Of a stretch of 47,861 nt of DNA, positions 1 to 47,861 are shown in pieces. The notes beneath the pieces were generated by a model that was not told the DNA's origin, ran no database searches, and was given only the letters and a program-made list of their open reading frames with translations. The position numbers and the translations under genes were made by a program. Origin of the DNA: a virus; IMG/VR virus record IMGVR_UViG_3300036766_000474, positions 1 through 47,861 of that record; one strand, 5' to 3'. Each line of letters begins with the position of its first letter. Position 1 is the first letter of the stretch.

Positions 1-135
1 TTCGACCGGAAGGACAACCGGTTTATAAATCTCTGTCATTCCTCCTGCCATAAGAGCTACCACGGCAAAATGAAGAAGCAAAAAGCTCTCTCAGACGAAC
101 ACGGAGCACGTAGGTTCCCTTTGTTGACTTGTAGT
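1..135. repeat. Left copy of terminal direct repeat (circle closure)
   Basis: These 135 bases recur at 47728-47861 with one difference: a run of three T at about 119-121 is two T in the right copy. The repeat lies inside an HNH endonuclease gene, so it is more likely the overlap of a circular or circularly permuted molecule than a physical terminal repeat. The left copy is probably the correct one, because its reading frame ends in TGA at 148-150, giving the ATGA overlap with the next gene that this phage uses repeatedly. Confidence 0.9.
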
Positions 136-8169: not shown

Positions 8170-8462
8170 GACCTTTGGGCGCACGCATCATCGTAAAGGA
8201 CATCGTTTCCTCCCTCAGCGATACGGAGAAGTGGAAGCGCGCAGGCCTTGAACTCGTCACCGAAGAAAGCAACCGCCCTCGAAACACAACCGGGAAGATT
8301 GTTGCACTGGGCACCGACCCCCTCTTGCGGGATGCGGGCTTAAAGGAAGGCTTAACAGTCTTTTTCGCTCCTCACGCAGGCACGTACATAATCGTTGAGG
8401 ATGAAGAGTTCCGCTCGCTTGACTTCTCCGAAATCATCTCCACCCTCGACGAGACTACTTAG
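8154..8462 (+). CDS. GroES-like co-chaperonin
   Basis: A 102-residue Cpn10-type protein. It has LRPLGARIIVKDI at the N-terminus, the TTGKIVALG strand, KEGLTVFFAPHAGT and a C-terminal EEFRSLDFSEIIS, the standard order of GroES. The position of the mobile loop (EKWKRAGLELVTEESNRPRN) matches the segment that docks on GroEL, but its sequence diverges. No GroEL is encoded, so it would act on host GroEL, as T4 Gp31 does for capsid folding. It is the last gene of the rightward arm and its end overlaps the converging leftward gene by 8 bases. Confidence 0.88.
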   Translation: MGKVLRPLGARIIVKDIVSSLSDTEKWKRAGLELVTEESNRPRNTTGKIVALGTDPLLRDAGLKEGLTVFFAPHAGTYIIVEDEEFRSLDFSEIISTLDETT

Positions 8463-8992: not shown

Positions 8993-9222
8993 TATTTCTC
9001 CTTTTCTCCGTTGCGTTTCTGGTTGAGGAATTCTACAACAGGACCCCTTATGTTTAGAGCACCGTATCGGTTGACAATTTTGATGAGGAGAGTGTACCCT
9101 TTTTGGAACTTGGGGTAGTCGTTAAAAAACTCGATGGGAGGCAAGAGGATACTAAGGAGCGAAGACCACAACACGATTTCTTTGACAACGTTATACGTTA
9201 GGTGTATCAGGTCGTGCTCCAT
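8992..9222 (-). CDS. Small membrane-associated protein, 76 aa
   Basis: One hydrophobic segment near residues 17-33 (VLWSSLLSILLPPIEFF) is followed by an aromatic/basic half ending in QKRNGEKEK. The layout, one helix with a PP break then a basic domain, is seen in small lysis-region phage proteins. No catalytic motif. It overlaps the ATP-grasp gene by 32 bases. Confidence 0.6.
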   Translation of the reverse strand: MEHDLIHLTYNVVKEIVLWSSLLSILLPPIEFFNDYPKFQKGYTLLIKIVNRYGALNIRGPVVEFLNQKRNGEKEK

Positions 9223-10498
9223 CTGCTTCCTCCACCACTTGGGTTAGTTCGAGAAACTTGTTGTAGTCTTCAATGTGGATCTGCTTCAAGTCTGTCCGGT
9301 ATTGCTTCTCCGGCACTTTCGCTTTCTCCGCAAGTTCGATTGGGCCGTCAAATGCTTCCGAAATGCTTTTGCCTTTACCCGTTAGGGCAGCCACCAGCCC
9401 GTACCCTGACGTGGTCATCAGTTGGTTTTTCTCGTTCAACTGCACTCCGTAGAAGTACAGATGAGGACGATCACTCCGCTCGAATCCGCGGACAGGGATG
9501 CCGGGTTGGGGCTTAAACTCCTCCGCGGGGTAGGGTGACACACTTAACCTTACCGCGGCTGCAAACCCGTCTTCGAGTAACATTGTTTTTGGATGCTCCC
9601 CTCTTGCAACAGAGGCAATAAGTTCACCGGGATCACCCTGCCACAACTCCAACAAGGTAGGGGTTGCGTCGTATCCAAACCGGGCAGTAAACTCCAGTGC
9701 CCACACTCCTTCAGGATTGACGATAGTATTGAGATCGATAGGGCCAACATATTCGAACTCCTTTAAGATCGGCCCCATGCGTTTAAGACCTTCCTCAATC
9801 ACACGGTTGGTTCCATCAACCCTCCAAACAATGTTCCCGCAACACCCTCCGGAAGGTCCAATGTCTTCGTTCATCAAACTCTTGTGTTCGAGGGTGTGGT
9901 TCCAGGGCAGGATGAAGTCCTCCCCGTTGAACCACCCCTCGGTTGAAATCGGTAACCCCTCCACAAACTGTTGGAGGATGAATTCCGGTTGAACGTGAGA
10001 GATGCTTTCGTAATACTCCAACATCTCTACCATGTCGTCGGGGTCAAATGCAGCGTAGGAGCCCACCCCACCTTCACCAGACAACTCACCGGAGGGTTTA
10101 AAGACCAACCTCCCTTTGTAGTGTTTGGCGAAATCTCTCCCCGCTCCCCAGTCGGTAAAGGATTCGTACTCAGGGAGTTTGACCTTCGCTTGTTGGAGGA
10201 ATTCAAACCCTACCGCACGATCAATCTCCAACTGGTCTGCAATCACAGATCCGCCAAACACGTGAAAGCCACGTGCGCGAAGGCGGTCGCCAGTTTTACC
10301 TCCCCCTGTTGAATCAAACACCACAATCGTGTCCTTATCAAGGAAGGTATCCCACTTAGTGAGCTTCTGAATCAACCCATCATAATTGCGCTTGGACTGT
10401 TTGTCCTTAATCCACGCGGCAACGTTGTGGCCGTTTTGTTTTAACCGAAGGGCGATTCCTAACCCCTCCCCGTAGCCAGATAAGAAGAGAAACTTCAT
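9191..10498 (-). CDS. PurD-like ATP-grasp ligase
   Basis: A 435-residue ATP-grasp enzyme closest in layout to phosphoribosylamine-glycine ligase. It has an N-terminal Rossmann-like strand (FLFLSGYGEGLG), a FHVFGGSVIADQLEIDRA segment (79-95), the ATP-grasp lysine strand RLVFKPSGELSGEGGVGSY (130-148) and the metal-binding strand WALEFTARFGYDATPTLL. The N-terminal nucleotide loop is not standard for PurD, so substrates may differ. Oddly it sits in the late operon between lysis genes, not with nucleotide genes. It may make GAR, or join an amino acid to some phage product. Confidence 0.78.
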   Translation of the reverse strand: MKFLFLSGYGEGLGIALRLKQNGHNVAAWIKDKQSKRNYDGLIQKLTKWDTFLDKDTIVVFDSTGGGKTGDRLRARGFHVFGGSVIADQLEIDRAVGFEFLQQAKVKLPEYESFTDWGAGRDFAKHYKGRLVFKPSGELSGEGGVGSYAAFDPDDMVEMLEYYESISHVQPEFILQQFVEGLPISTEGWFNGEDFILPWNHTLEHKSLMNEDIGPSGGCCGNIVWRVDGTNRVIEEGLKRMGPILKEFEYVGPIDLNTIVNPEGVWALEFTARFGYDATPTLLELWQGDPGELIASVARGEHPKTMLLEDGFAAAVRLSVSPYPAEEFKPQPGIPVRGFERSDRPHLYFYGVQLNEKNQLMTTSGYGLVAALTGKGKSISEAFDGPIELAEKAKVPEKQYRTDLKQIHIEDYNKFLELTQVVEEADGARPDTPNV

Positions 10499-19119: not shown

Positions 19120-19469
19120 AAGGTAACCTCCACTGCGCCTGCGTATAGGATTCCGGCTTTGTCAATTGCCACCGTAAACCAGCCGGTTGGGATGTATCCC
19201 AAATTATGGGTTACGGTAAACTGGGAGTCTGCTATTGCGGGGGTGGTTGTTTCCCCCCATGCTCCTTTGATGTTGATTGGTCCGTTGGTTGGGCTCCCAA
19301 ACTCCAAATTACCATTCACTGCCAACAACACGTTGTTGAGGATCCGGTTTTGGGGAGTGGCTACCTTCTCCGGAGGGGACGAAACCATCCCTTTAGGGGG
19401 AGGTTGAATCCTACCCTGGTTTGTTTTACCCTCCGCCCAATCAGGAGGTAGTGTGCCACCAACTATCAC
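19050..19469 (-). CDS. Small tail/receptor-region protein, 139 aa
   Basis: The N-terminal third is Pro-rich; the rest is beta-rich with SQFTVTHNLGYIPTGWFTVAID, a pattern common in short phage tail-tip or fibre-associated proteins. No catalytic motif. Lying between the Ig-like protein and the GNAT-like gene, it is probably a virion component. It overlaps both neighbours. Confidence 0.5.
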   Translation of the reverse strand: MIVGGTLPPDWAEGKTNQGRIQPPPKGMVSSPPEKVATPQNRILNNVLLAVNGNLEFGSPTNGPINIKGAWGETTTPAIADSQFTVTHNLGYIPTGWFTVAIDKAGILYAGAVEVTLWTTTQLVLKCSVASVKVKVFVI

Positions 19470-20833
19470 TGACCCTCCACCTTCTCTCCCCTCGGTGCGA
19501 AGTGGGGAATGAATCCGATGATTGAAACCTGACCTCCATTCGCGGGCCGGGTGATTTTGAGTTCCAGAATTTCCCCACTAGCGGTAAAATCAAAGAACTC
19601 ACTCCGTTCGGAACCATCCGCGGCAGCAGTACCGATTGTTATGGTCTTCACCACAGTGTCTACAAAGTCTGGGTTTGCGGGTGGACCAACCACGGCTCTT
19701 AAGCAAGTGAGGGTGGCGGTTAAAGTTGCAACTCCTAAGTTCTCATAAAACACCTCCAACCGCTGCATGGTGCGTTCACTTCCGGGTTGCTTCCACACCG
19801 CACCGTTGAAAATAAGAGTGCTGGCTTCAGTAGAGTTCAAATTCGCCGAACTCAAGACCTTGTGAGTAACTACCCCCGCTCCGGTAATGAAGGCAAGTAT
19901 GAGTTCCCTTACCGCCCCAGTTACGATTGCGATTGGGCATAGAAGTGTACTTAATCCACTCAACGACACAGTAAAAGGGTTAGCTCCCAGGTTTGTTTGG
20001 ATGTTAACTATTTCCTTTAATAAACCCAAGATTGTAGGGGTAAACTTGACCCCGATTGTAATGCAAGCTCCCGGAGGGAGGGTAAGGGGGTATTGAGCCT
20101 TTGCTTGGGTGTAGTGGGTAGGGTACGAAGACCTCTTAATCCCACTCACCTGCCTTACAGAGGGAGTTAAGGAGGATTGGTAGAAGTAGTGGTTGATAAA
20201 CCTCCTCACCCTATTTACCTGGTACACCCTAAGCGCCATTAGGGCTTGAGGGGTGGTAGAGAGGGTGAAGTCAGTTCCCACCCCCAACGTGATTGAGGTT
20301 ATATCAAAAGGGCCACCCCCGATATTGCAAATAGTAAACGTCATCTCCACGCTTGAGGTTGTTACCTTAGTACAAGAAAAACTCAGCGCGAGAGGGTTGA
20401 TACTAATAATGCCAGACCCAGCTCCTCCCCCACCTCCCGCAGGCACTCCTTGTCCTATAAGTTGTGTGTCGAGAGGAAAGGTCACGCCTTGAGTTAGCCT
20501 AAGTATAGATGTAAACGGCCCAGGTGACGGAGGGGTAAAGTTTACCTGAAACGTCGTAAAACTGTAAGGAGGCATTGAAAAAAGAGTCGGAGGGGTTAAT
20601 GAGAACGCAAAGGGCGAGGGTCCGGTAATCGCAAGAGTCGCTCCTGCGAGGAAGGCACTAGGATTATATAACGTGCCTGTTATGGATTTAGTAGTACCAA
20701 CAACAGCCTGACCGAAGTCAGTTGGGTTATCTAAACTAATCTCGACAGGTACAACCCCTCCTCCTCCACCCCCCTCACCCCCGTCTGGAGGAAGTTGATA
20801 GTATAATAAAAACGGTCTGTGTTTGAACTTCAT
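19466..20833 (-). CDS. Virion protein with ASH/HYDIN-type Ig-like domains
   Basis: 455 residues. Two stretches resemble the ASPM-SPD2-Hydin Ig-like repeat: one around residues 30-130 (FGQAVVGTTKSITGTLYNPS, then FQVNFTPPSPGPFTSIL), another around 145-295 (LSFSCTKVTTSSVEMTFTIC, then ITIGVKFTPTILGLLKEIV). They are separated by Gly-rich linkers (EGGGGGGVV; GGGGGAGSG). The last 150 residues form a different beta-rich domain. Ig-like domains on phage particles usually bind surfaces or glycans. No signal peptide here, unlike the fibre-like genes upstream. Confidence 0.65.
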   Translation of the reverse strand: MKFKHRPFLLYYQLPPDGGEGGGGGGVVPVEISLDNPTDFGQAVVGTTKSITGTLYNPSAFLAGATLAITGPSPFAFSLTPPTLFSMPPYSFTTFQVNFTPPSPGPFTSILRLTQGVTFPLDTQLIGQGVPAGGGGGAGSGIISINPLALSFSCTKVTTSSVEMTFTICNIGGGPFDITSITLGVGTDFTLSTTPQALMALRVYQVNRVRRFINHYFYQSSLTPSVRQVSGIKRSSYPTHYTQAKAQYPLTLPPGACITIGVKFTPTILGLLKEIVNIQTNLGANPFTVSLSGLSTLLCPIAIVTGAVRELILAFITGAGVVTHKVLSSANLNSTEASTLIFNGAVWKQPGSERTMQRLEVFYENLGVATLTATLTCLRAVVGPPANPDFVDTVVKTITIGTAAADGSERSEFFDFTASGEILELKITRPANGGQVSIIGFIPHFAPRGEKVEGQ

Positions 20834-43463: not shown

Positions 43464-43521
43464 AGTAGCAGAAAAGTTGAAGGAATTAAACGCCAAAGGC
43501 CCAAGAAAGGAGAAGCCATAA
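43456..43521 (+). CDS. Tiny leader-like peptide, 21 aa
   Basis: MIKVAEKLKELNAKGPRKEK-type peptide, ATG overlapping the zinc-ribbon gene, TAA at 43519-43521. Its stop overlaps by one base the ATT from which the nuclease must start (TAATT, compared with the TAATG used elsewhere in this genome), so its main role may be to bring ribosomes to that rare start. Confidence 0.4.
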   Translation: MIKVAEKLKELNAKGPRKEKP

Positions 43522-44519
43522 TTATCAACATATCTCGTATCACCCAGTTTCAAGAATGCCGCCAGAAGGCGTGGTATTGGCATGAGGAAGGACTTGTCGC
43601 CCAGAGGGAAGCTGAAGCCCTTATTACTGGAGGCGCGGTTCATGTTGGATTTGCTACCCTCTTTAGCACCCACGACACCAAACAAGCAGTTGAAGCGACT
43701 GAACACGAATACCGTACGCGCTTAGAGAACCAGATGGTCCTGCCTGAGGAACGGATTCAGGTGGAACAGCAGATTGAGATGTCCAAACGTGCGGTCGTTA
43801 TGTTCGCGGACGAATACGCGAAGGCGGACTATACGGTGTTGTGGCCGGAGGTTGAATTTTTCACCCCGATTCCAGGCACCGAACACCATTGCCATTTCGT
43901 ACACCGGATTTTACACCCCAAGGCCCCGCCTTCGGATCCCACGACTGGTTCTCCTGAACCCTGTAAGGATGAACGGTGCTTCCATCCTATCTATTTCACC
44001 GGTCGCACGGACGCGGTAATCACCCTCCAGAGTGTAATTTGGTTGTTGGAAACGAAAACGTCCGCGATGACGGGCAACATTTTCTTCGACCGGTTTTATC
44101 TGGATTTCCAACCCACAGGGTATTTGTATGGGATTTGGAAGCAGACGGGGGTTCGCCCTCATGGTTTTCTCCTCAACGTGGTGAAGAAGCCGCAAAAGAG
44201 AGCGGCGGATCAGTTTAATGTTACCTTCGAACGCGAACCCTACCTGCGGACTGATGAAGACCTCCAACGGTTTGAGCACGAACTCATTATTCAAGCACAA
44301 GACTACGAAGATGCGTGGGAGAAAAAGCGCATCTACATGAACACGAAGTCGTGCACAAACTATAATCGTCGCTGCTATTTTTGGGACCTTTGTAAGCGGC
44401 ATGGGGAGATGATTGACGGGGAATTTAGGCTCCGCAATCGTGATTACGTCGACCTCGCGTATTACAAACTGCTGGGATTGGAGGTACCACAGGATGGAGA
44501 AGTCGTTAGTCCTGCTTAG
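43521..44519 (+). CDS. Cas4/RecB-type Fe-S nuclease (PD-(D/E)XK), start at ATT
   Basis: Conserved sequence of this family extends upstream of the first ATG (43734): SRITQFQECRQKAWYWHEEG and ITGGAVHVGFATLF. That stretch is open back to a stop at 43461-43463 but has no ATG, GTG or TTG. With AAGGAG at 43507-43512 the start must be ATT 43521 (or ATA 43518), giving 332 aa. The nuclease site is GRTDAVITLQSVIWLLETK (D164, E177, K179). Cys 13, 278, 285 and 291 form the expected iron-sulfur set (C...CX6CX5C). It overlaps queC by 26 bases. Likely role: end resection in recombination. Confidence 0.85.
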   Translation: MINISRITQFQECRQKAWYWHEEGLVAQREAEALITGGAVHVGFATLFSTHDTKQAVEATEHEYRTRLENQMVLPEERIQVEQQIEMSKRAVVMFADEYAKADYTVLWPEVEFFTPIPGTEHHCHFVHRILHPKAPPSDPTTGSPEPCKDERCFHPIYFTGRTDAVITLQSVIWLLETKTSAMTGNIFFDRFYLDFQPTGYLYGIWKQTGVRPHGFLLNVVKKPQKRAADQFNVTFEREPYLRTDEDLQRFEHELIIQAQDYEDAWEKKRIYMNTKSCTNYNRRCYFWDLCKRHGEMIDGEFRLRNRDYVDLAYYKLLGLEVPQDGEVVSPA

Positions 44520-45213
44520 TGGTGGGCTTGACTCGTGTGTTGCGCTTGCAATCGCGAGTGAGGAAACCACGGTTGTTGGCACGCTCTCATTTAGCTACGG
44601 CCAACGCCATCACAGGGAGACCGTCGCCGCCCACGCAATTGGGATGCATTATGGAGTCCCTCCTCTCTTCGTTAACCTCAACGTAATAGGTGAAGTCCTC
44701 GCATACTTCAAAGGTTCCGCCCTCGTTGACACCACCGAAGCCCTCCCCTCCAACCGCCGAATGAGCGCGATGACGGCCAAGATTCCGCGGACTTACGTGC
44801 CGGGCAGAAACACAATCATGTTGGCGGTCGCACAATCAATCGCGGAAGCACGCGATATCGACCTCCTCTACACCGGATTTAACGCGGTGGACTTTAGTGG
44901 TTATCCTGATTGTAGACCAATCTTCGTTGAGGCTTGGAACAACCTTGCCAAGTACTCTACAAAGAGAGGACACGAACTCCACCCTATCTTGGTGCGTGCT
45001 CCCCTCATTAACTGGTCGAAGGTTCATATTGTTCAGGAGGGGATGGATCGCCACGCCCCCCTCAACCTCACGTGGAGTTGTTACCGTGGGGAGGAAAAGC
45101 AGTGTGGCACTTGCGACAGCTGCATTATTCGTGCAGACGCTTTTAGTCAACTGAACCTTCCCGACCCCTCACTGGAGGTACAGAGTGCCGAAATACGCAA
45201 CGATAGCGTTTGA
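44494..45213 (+). CDS. queC: 7-cyano-7-deazaguanine (preQ0) synthase
   Basis: QueC turns 7-carboxy-7-deazaguanine into preQ0 using ATP and ammonia. Evidence: PP-loop LLSGGLDS (7-14), FSYGQRHHRE, YVPGRNTIML and the zinc site SCYRGEEKQCGTCDSC near the C-terminus. Length 239 is normal and no extra amidotransferase domain is fused. The ATG at 44494 keeps the motif at its usual place. The last 29 bases overlap the ATPase gene, whose ribosome site lies inside queC. Confidence 0.95.
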   Translation: MEKSLVLLSGGLDSCVALAIASEETTVVGTLSFSYGQRHHRETVAAHAIGMHYGVPPLFVNLNVIGEVLAYFKGSALVDTTEALPSNRRMSAMTAKIPRTYVPGRNTIMLAVAQSIAEARDIDLLYTGFNAVDFSGYPDCRPIFVEAWNNLAKYSTKRGHELHPILVRAPLINWSKVHIVQEGMDRHAPLNLTWSCYRGEEKQCGTCDSCIIRADAFSQLNLPDPSLEVQSAEIRNDSV

Positions 45214-45937
45214 TTCTGCTTCCGAGATCGCCCGGTTGTACTTCAGTTTCGACATGAAAAAACATGCTTCCAACATGGACGCAATCCGCGCCATGCAAAA
45301 CTACCCCGGTGCTACCGAACGGCTAAACATGCTAGTTCGGAGAATGAAGGACTTCCGTGATAAAGGAATCGAAATCGTCTTCACCGCGCACGAGGACATT
45401 GAGAAAATCTACGCACGTGGTGGAGCTATGGGTAAGAAAGGGGAGGCACCTCCTGATCCTGTCGCTGTCAAAGGTTGGCCGGACATTCCTGGGAAGAGAG
45501 CCCCTGACGAATTCTGTCGTGCGGCAGATAATGTCATCCACGTCAGGTATGTTAATTCTAAACCCATGTGGATCGGACGAAGAGAACCTATCGGAACAGG
45601 TGCTGAGTACTGGGAGGTTAAAGATCGATTTAACGCGCCTGCGCTTCAGGGCGGATTACTCCCTCCCTCGTACCAAGAACTCGCAAAGATGGCGCTTGCT
45701 AATCCCCTTTGTAACTGGCGTCCCCCCTACACTTGGGTCTTTTACGGTCCCTTCGGGTGTGGCAAAACCCGGTCCCTCCTCACGTTCCCGAGGCCGATGA
45801 TTATCTTCGACCTCGATCACGGCACGAAGGTCTTTAGGGAGGACGAACTAAAAGACATCGAAATCGTGTCCGACATCAACAGCGAAGAGTGTGACGACTA
45901 CCCCAAGTTTGTAGCGAAGCTTGAATCCTGCCTCTAG
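45185..45937 (+). CDS. Circularly permuted Sak4/AAA_24-like RecA-fold ATPase
   Basis: GTG start at 45185 with TGGAGGTACAGA upstream. The elements of a Sak4-type recombination ATPase are all there, but in swapped order. Residues 4-20 are the Walker B strand (YATIAFDSASEIARLYF), 63-70 EIVFTAHE, 140-150 the closing AEYWEVKDRFN. After a linker (PSYQELAKMALANPLCNWRP), residues 181-213 supply what is normally the N-terminus: YTWVFYGPFGCGKTRSLL with Walker A GPFGCGKT (188-195), then PMIIFDLDHG. The end (KFVAKLESCL) is where Walker B should follow. Beside an SSB-like gene, it is expected to anneal or exchange single strands. Confidence 0.8.
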   Translation: MPKYATIAFDSASEIARLYFSFDMKKHASNMDAIRAMQNYPGATERLNMLVRRMKDFRDKGIEIVFTAHEDIEKIYARGGAMGKKGEAPPDPVAVKGWPDIPGKRAPDEFCRAADNVIHVRYVNSKPMWIGRREPIGTGAEYWEVKDRFNAPALQGGLLPPSYQELAKMALANPLCNWRPPYTWVFYGPFGCGKTRSLLTFPRPMIIFDLDHGTKVFREDELKDIEIVSDINSEECDDYPKFVAKLESCL

Positions 45938-45947
45938 GGAGCCCTGA

Positions 45948-46172
45948 ATGGTTCGAATGAACATCACCATCACCGACGACAAATGGCCGAAACTCACAAT
46001 GGTCGTAAATCGAGAAACCGTCACCGGAGACAAATTCGTCTCCACCGACTCCTATCAATACGACCTTTCGTACACAAACTTTGAGGGGATTCTTCACAAC
46101 CACTTAAGACCGATGGTGGAAGAACTCATCAAACGCAGGAAGAGAAACCAACAAGGAGCCACACACTCATGA
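45948..46172 (+). CDS. Hypothetical protein, 74 aa
   Basis: ATG at 45948 after AGGGAGCCCTGA. A small beta-rich protein (MNITITDDKWPKLTMVVN) with a helical, basic end (VEELIKRRKRNQQ). It sits between the ATPase and the SSB-like gene, so a recombination accessory role is possible but unproven. Overlaps the next gene by 4 bases. Confidence 0.6.
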   Translation: MVRMNITITDDKWPKLTMVVNRETVTGDKFVSTDSYQYDLSYTNFEGILHNHLRPMVEELIKRRKRNQQGATHS

Positions 46173-46709: not shown

Positions 46710-47186
46710 GTGGGACTACTAAGTCCAGCAGAAAGAGCTTATGCGGCAGGATTGTTCGACGGAGAAGGTAGCTTTAATATTATCCTGAGAACAAAGCAGA
46801 ATATCTTTCGCCCTGTCGTTACTTTTTCTAATAACAACCCTCTCTATCACGCCTGGCTAGGTAACCGCTTTCCTGAGTCAGGTACTCCTGAAGCCCACAG
46901 ACACGGAGTTATTAGGAAATGTAGGTCAACCTACTGGCAAACTATTCCAGGTTTGAAGTACCTACTACCTTCTATTATTCCCTTTCTTACTGGGAAACGT
47001 GAACAAGCAGAGTTAGTTCTAGCTTTAACTATTGGTTTTCAAGGACAGGGTAAGCCAAGCAAGCTTTCCCGGGACGAGCAACAATCTCTGTACAACGAAA
47101 TCAAACGGCTGAACAACCTCGAGTACGTCTGGGACGTACCAGAAGAGGAGGTATCAAGTGGAACTGAGAAAAACGTTTCGCTTTGA
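46710..47186 (+). CDS. LAGLIDADG homing endonuclease, 158 aa
   Basis: ERAYAAGLFDGEGSF (8-22) is the LAGLIDADG helix. Only one copy is present, so it would act as a homodimer. Downstream strands (FRPVVTFSNNNPLY, KYLLPSIIPFLTGKREQAEL) match the family. GTG start with GACGGAGGTGGCA upstream. The gene is visibly richer in A+T than its neighbours, as expected for a recent insertion. It overlaps the start of queD by 29 bases. Confidence 0.88.
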   Translation: MGLLSPAERAYAAGLFDGEGSFNIILRTKQNIFRPVVTFSNNNPLYHAWLGNRFPESGTPEAHRHGVIRKCRSTYWQTIPGLKYLLPSIIPFLTGKREQAELVLALTIGFQGQGKPSKLSRDEQQSLYNEIKRLNNLEYVWDVPEEEVSSGTEKNVSL

Positions 47187-47561
47187 GGCGTCGCACATTC
47201 TGCCAAAGCATCCCGGCAAATGTTCACGCCTCCATTAGGTGGCCACTCCTGGGTTCTCCACGTTTTCGTAAAGGGAGACGTTTGTCCTGAAACCGGCTTT
47301 GTACAAGACTACGCGGATATCTCAGCGTTGGTTAAACCTATCATCGAGCAGTTGGATCACCACCACCTTGGAACTGATATAGGCGGTCCTCCTGCTTGGT
47401 ATGGTCCCTTCAGCATTTACCCTTCATCCGAGAACATCCTCTTGTGGTTGGGAGCACGATTGCTCGTACATGGTTTAGATTGGTCCCGCCTCGCGCTGGA
47501 AGAAACCTGCACCAGTTACGCGGAATTAAGTAGGGAGGAATTCGATGCGAAAGGACGTTAA
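47158..47561 (+). pseudogene. queD: 6-carboxytetrahydropterin synthase, interrupted by a 5-base insertion
   Basis: GTG at 47158 with AGAGGAGGTATCAA upstream begins VELRKTFRFEASHILPKHPG and reaches KCSRLH, then TAG (47236-47238). The expected next residues, GHSWVLHVFVKGD, follow in the -1 frame from 47241. Removing 5 bases (TAGGT, 47236-47240) restores CSRLHGHSW exactly, so the break is inside the HGH zinc motif. The rest (LDHHHLGTD, SSENILLWLGARL) is intact QueD. A -1 frameshift would insert only Leu-Gly. It may be a dead gene, a recoded gene, or a strain variant. Confidence 0.85.
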
Positions 47562-47853
47562 ATCCGAACTCCAAATGTTACGTGAACTGGTTTGGTATCT
47601 TGTTGGGTACAAACTCCTCACCTGTTGTTTCTGTAACAAACCCCTTCTTGAAATCCCCGCCGACATGTTGTTTGGGCATCGGAGACATCCGAAAGTTGAT
47701 GTTGAGTTATGCCTCCACCACACCAACTTCGACCGGAAGGACAACCGGTTTATAAATCTCTGTCATTCCTCCTGCCATAAGAGCTACCACGGCAAAATGA
47801 AGAAGCAAAAAGCTCTCTCAGACGAACACGGAGCACGTAGGTTCCCTTGTTGA
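47545..47853 (+). CDS. HNH endonuclease
   Basis: A small zinc-bound HNH enzyme: CCFCNKPL (C27/C30 pair), LCLHHTNFDRKDNRFINLC (H58/H59 as the active His, N67) and CHSSCHKSYH (C73/C77). ATG at 47545 with AGGGAGGAATTCG upstream, overlapping queD by 17 bases. In this copy a missing T ends the protein at RFPC. Across the closure (see 1-150) it reads on about 10 more residues and then couples to the next gene, which is likely correct. A free-standing homing-type enzyme beside queD. Confidence 0.85.
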   Translation: MRKDVKSELQMLRELVWYLVGYKLLTCCFCNKPLLEIPADMLFGHRRHPKVDVELCLHHTNFDRKDNRFINLCHSSCHKSYHGKMKKQKALSDEHGARRFPC

Positions 47854-47861
47854 CTTGTAGT
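47728..47861. repeat. Right copy of terminal direct repeat
   Basis: 134 bases equal to 1-135 except for one T fewer in the run near 47846-47847. The indel changes the HNH C-terminus and is probably an assembly or sequencing slip at the contig end. Confidence 0.9.

Follow-up and report, generated by a model that had tools for sequence, protein, structure and literature searches.

A Sak4-like protein of uncultured bacterial viruses encoded with its two halves in reversed order

Sak4 has been described as a remote homolog consisting of the RecA core only (PMC5928155). The Sak4 of HK620 binds and anneals single-stranded DNA only with ATP, and the SSB from the adjacent gene stimulates it strongly; an association between Sak4 and SSB genes has been described (PMC5928155). 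Natural circular permutation is known in the P-loop GTPases RbgA/YlqF and RsgA/YloQ (PMC6912228).

The DNA analysed here (the window) is the whole of IMG/VR virus record IMGVR_UViG_3300036766_000474, 47,861 nucleotides long. It encodes a protein that resembles the Sak4 family (PHROG_124, AAA_24; HK620 and PA73): it carries the same motifs, gives a continuous match to the RecA core once it is rotated, and is adjoined by exonuclease and SSB-like genes. Unlike normal Sak4, it has its halves reversed, so that the chain starts at Walker B and ends before the usual place of Walker B, and its loop between the AHE and PGK segments is longer than in normal relatives. Compared with the RecA, Rad51 and RadA recombinases, it consists of the core alone; of the RadA/Sms features, the zinc finger and the S5 domain are absent by Pfam and KDRF is found instead of KNRFG. 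RbgA and RsgA are similar in being P-loop NTPase domains with circularly permuted motifs that were long retained in evolution. They are TRAFAC GTPases that act in ribosome assembly and belong to another P-loop class, and their permutation event is not homologous. Assignment to the permuted-GTPase family (YjeQ/YlqF) was considered and rejected, as the Pfam matches include no GTPase profile. The genes, signals and motifs are the following:

43734-44519, plus strand: exonuclease (PHROG_1218), whose start is probably further upstream
44494-45213, plus strand: queC
45174-45179, plus strand: Shine-Dalgarno sequence GGAGGT, 5 bases upstream of the GTG and within queC, read from the sequence
45185-45937, plus strand: circularly permuted Sak4-like ATPase gene, 250 aa
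45194-45634, plus strand: first-coming half, residues 4-150, spanning the Walker B strand through KDRF; corresponds to the C-terminal portion of a normal Sak4 (about positions 107-236 of PHROG_124)
45197-45217, plus strand: Walker B, ATIAFDS, residues 5-11
45386-45394, plus strand: AHE segment, residues 68-70, closing the next strand; its H and E do not vary within the clade
45395-45499, plus strand: extended loop, about residues 71-105, partly disordered in models
45620-45631, plus strand: KDRF motif, residues 146-149; its K, R and F do not vary within the clade
45662-45730, plus strand: new joint, residues 160-182, a helix and short linker connecting the old C terminus with the strand preceding the P-loop
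45731-45934, plus strand: last-coming half, residues 183-250, with the P-loop strand, the P-loop, the next strand and a helix; corresponds to the N-terminal portion of a normal Sak4 (about positions 43-88 of PHROG_124)
45746-45769, plus strand: P-loop (Walker A), GPFGCGKT, residues 188-195
45948-46172, plus strand: small conserved ORF, 74 aa
46169-46579, plus strand: DUF669/SSB-like protein (PHROG_378), candidate cognate single-strand DNA binding protein

The gene starts with a GTG at 45185 within queC, which it overlaps by 29 bases, and stops at a TAG (45935-45937) that is directly followed by GGAG and then by the ATG at 45948. An earlier note on this DNA had placed Walker B first, AHE at residue 68, KDRF at 146 and the P-loop (188-195) last, and had described a GTG start with a ribosome site inside queC and a stop directly before the site of the next gene; the sequence agrees on all these positions and signals. 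The loop of residues 71-105 lies at the place of the RecA-type DNA-binding loop and may bind DNA.

The native protein is matched by both PHROG_124 ('Sak4-like ssDNA annealing protein', E 6e-21) and Pfam AAA_24 (E 1e-12), in each case over two stretches in reversed order. Residues 3-150 align to PHROG_124 positions 108-236, and residues 183-232, the P-loop part, align to the first positions of AAA_24. When the P-loop half was placed in front of the Walker B half (rotation), a single stretch was obtained with PHROG_124 (positions 43-236, 85.9 bits, E 7e-24, against 76.2 bits for the native order) and with AAA_24 (56.3 bits, E 5e-15, against 48.6 bits). Profile-profile comparison with hhalign gave 1.5e-20 over 191 columns for the rotated order versus 1.2e-13 over 125 columns for the native one. 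With tblastn against 50,697 phage records, the native order had no match at E 0.01 and the rotated order matched 243 records at E ≤ 1 (best 5e-5), the two cut-offs being unequal but the top rotated matches also satisfying 0.01. Every rotation of five clade members was scored against a profile of normal Sak4, and all five showed a score plateau with its maximum at cuts just N-terminal to the P-loop. For the window protein, the score rose from 40.9 bits uncut to 65.1 bits rotated, with the best cut at residues 165-180, whereas normal Sak4 controls scored highest uncut (cut point 0). The rotated alignment spans almost all of the short normal Sak4s, for example that of Sphingomonas phage Birtae, so only a short N-terminal segment is missing. 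A sequence search of the PDB with the protein returned no match.

Relatives were gathered by IMG/VR scans, with the protein as query and then with growing alignments. This yielded 18 further contigs, each from a different metagenome sample, with 50-63% protein identity to the window. The gene is complete and uninterrupted in 15 of the 19 contigs (window included); it is truncated by the contig end in two (L012 and L047) and carries a frameshift near its start in one (L010). In L016, the permuted Sak4 gene has an in-frame TGA (about 8397-8399) where a tryptophan is otherwise conserved; a point mutation, an error or decoding of TGA as tryptophan may explain it. All 19 contigs encode the Walker B half ahead of the P-loop half. 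In an order census with profiles built solely from normal phage Sak4 proteins, all 17 assessable clade members were permuted and all 22 other Sak4 proteins, which include several near-identical copies and six that also served in building the profiles, had the normal order. Since the motif order that marks Sak4 is reversed here, we class the protein as a permuted variant and not as an ordinary member. No second, normal Sak4 was found in the clade contigs with a PHROG_124 search, and the permuted gene is therefore the sole Sak4 there.

K194, T195 and D10-S11 are retained in every clade sequence that covers these positions, as are H and E of AHE and K, R and F of KDRF. The last P-loop glycine is replaced by lysine or glutamate in four contigs (L006, L013, L008 and L016; GVFGIKKT, GTIGMEKT), with the lysine and threonine kept, so ATP use may vary there. 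No relative was found in two scans of reference genomes (hosts and prophages) or in a scan of plasmids; the permuted gene was found solely on metagenome contigs and is absent from the cultured phages, plasmids and reference genomes searched.

AlphaFold2 models were obtained with 11 sequences (pLDDT 72.9, pTM 0.74) and with 17 sequences (pLDDT 85.1, pTM 0.84). From the N terminus, the model runs through the Walker B strand, a helix, further helices, the strand ending in AHE and a partly disordered loop, and continues with a helix, a strand pair, a helix, a strand, the P-loop, a helix, a strand and a helix. The high pTM predicts a single compact domain with the halves packed together, in which, judging from the same score, strand 6-10 would pack next to the P-loop strand 183-188. 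Foldseek returned nothing significant, either among PDB chains (at E 0.001) or among viral models. As the method requires the same chain order, this null result fits a permutant and neither supports nor refutes a RecA fold. The earlier note had proposed a circular permutation; given the rotation tests, the conservation in 19 contigs and the confident single-domain model, we regard the permutation itself as close to certain.

The gene order of the clade, read from the contigs that are long enough (the exceptions are truncated contigs), is exonuclease, queC, permuted Sak4, the small ORF (in most), the DUF669 SSB-like gene, queD, often an HNH gene, and queE, with folE at the end where contigs reach it. 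The SSB-like gene thus sits one ORF downstream of the permuted Sak4. Its product in the window has no acidic NDYPPF-like C-terminal tail and ends in STPKKA; because it differs from the HK620 partner in this tail, the partnership may differ in detail. In the window, queE (624-1322) and folE (1792-2349) extend the gene order that follows the HNH gene in the relatives. The window's queD (47158-47558) seems to be divided between two reading frames near 47235, and an ORF for an HNH-type endonuclease (46710-47186) lies just upstream of the split. The exonuclease frame extends upstream of its first ATG/GTG/TTG over 43519-43734 with conserved sequence (INISRITQFQEC...) and reaches ATA/ATT codons directly after a Shine-Dalgarno-like AAGGAG; a non-standard or lost start codon is possible.

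The earlier note had asked for related phages with the unpermuted order, and one was found. Contig L072 (IMGVR_UViG_3300024265_000060), which has a related terminase (32%), carries an exonuclease, a normal-order Sak4, a small ORF and an SSB-like gene consecutively, the last being assigned from position and appearance without a significant profile match. Its related exonuclease lies upstream and its small ORF and SSB-like gene downstream, as in the clade; it differs in that the P-loop comes first and no queC separates exonuclease and Sak4. The arrangement in L072 looks like an unpermuted version of the clade's module.

Together, these data are best explained by a permuted Sak4 that acts like the Sak4 of HK620, a reading we hold with good confidence. 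On this reading, ORF 45185-45937 encodes a naturally circularly permuted phage recombination ATPase of the Sak4 type (RecA-core, AAA_24). Its chain runs from the Walker B strand through the AHE strand and the KDRF end, across a short joint to the strand before the P-loop, and ends immediately before the usual place of Walker B. In the folded protein, the P-loop from the C-terminal half and the Walker B strand at the N terminus would lie adjacent and form one ordinary nucleotide site. With ATP, the protein would bind single strands produced by the neighbouring exonuclease and coated by the neighbouring SSB-like protein, and anneal them during phage recombination and replication. Homology and gene context make an ATP-dependent annealase function likely; nucleotide binding, annealing and the SSB partnership are likewise inferred for the permuted protein and would follow the HK620 example.

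That the reversed order is an assembly or sequencing artefact is barely conceivable. The gene has been seen in metagenome contigs alone, but 19 contigs share the order, the synteny and purifying selection at 50-63% identity to the window. The earlier note had called the order genuine, and misassembly is ruled out by the 18 independent relatives with matching order and neighbourhood. The gene lies about 1.8 kb inside the contig end, so the closing point of the contig is not spanned by it. About 120 identical bases are common to both ends of the window (1-134 and 47728-47861; longer with one indel), and the genome is by this terminal repeat probably complete or circularly closed. In closest pairs, dN/dS was 0.017-0.076 over the whole gene and 0.01-0.08 for each half, values that are approximate because synonymous sites are close to saturation; being this low, they indicate that both halves are maintained by selection. 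When rotated and normal sequences were placed in one tree, the permuted proteins grouped together as a clade with a long branch (support 1.000). A single origin is the simplest reading, and we infer one permutation event in the ancestor of the phage clade. The permutation is old, conserved and under selection. The route proposed in the earlier note, a tandem duplication followed by loss of the outer halves, is plausible, but no intermediate supports it. A split of Sak4 into two genes followed by fusion in reverse order is compatible with the permuted Sak4 explanation and would give an identical end product, and split genes are common in phage genomes, but no split genes or tandem copies were seen; we give this route an appreciable, minority chance. 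Neither tandem nor split Sak4 intermediates turned up when the complete protein, its P-loop half, the exonuclease or the DUF669 gene served as query, and the same four scans for close normal-order relatives returned permuted members or distant normal ones only. As neither intermediate was seen, the duplication and the split and fusion routes are indistinguishable.

The same packing of the halves could in principle arise between chains, the P-loop half of one subunit pairing with the Walker B half of its neighbour, which would make obligate dimers, rings or filaments with each ATP site common to two chains. Within-chain and between-chain pairing look identical by sequence alone, the joint preceding the P-loop is short, and ATP sites shared between neighbouring subunits occur in RecA-family proteins. 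Against such domain swapping, the AlphaFold2 model (pTM 0.84) predicts a compact monomer and the Sak4 of HK620 is monomeric in solution (PMC5928155). We consider swapping improbable and closure within the chain likely. An even smaller probability is given to a Sak4-derived permuted ATPase without a recombination role that serves the 7-deazaguanine DNA-modification genes queC, queD, queE and folE. In its favour, clade members carry the gene between queC and queD, with queE and folE further on, and in the window the gene and queC overlap. However, a recombination module surrounds the gene as well, with the exonuclease gene on one side and the SSB-like gene on the other; a second annealing protein from the Sak4 family is absent; and in L072 the module stands without an intervening queC.

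A group of uncultured bacterial viruses makes a recombination enzyme with its halves opposite to those of all other relatives examined. We found no report of a permuted Sak4 or RecA-family recombinase among 5.39 million open-access papers, which agrees with the earlier note's statement that no such member had been described. A bolder reading, which we offer tentatively and with doubt, is that a RecA-family recombinase core is seen here for the first time as a natural circular permutant, fixed once in a phage lineage, and that the moved chain ends are not neutral and change subunit assembly or the ATP gating of DNA binding. A conserved permutant shows that nature accepts a chain break after the second strand-helix unit and before Walker B. 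It reveals which links within the RecA core can be dispensed with, and its natural new chain ends could be used for probing polymerisation and ATP gating. As sequence and fold searches in the same order miss permutants (tblastn gave none in native order and 243 rotated), other permuted recombinases may be present without annotation in phage genomes.

Elsewhere in the window, positions 9191-10498 encode a weakly purD-like (GARS) ATP-grasp protein and 2340-2840 a phosphoribosyltransferase; alongside queC, queE and folE, they give hints of a phage-encoded modified-guanine nucleotide chemistry. Among the structural genes, positions 19466-20833 match ASH/HYDIN-type Ig-like domains (Cep192_D4, ASH).
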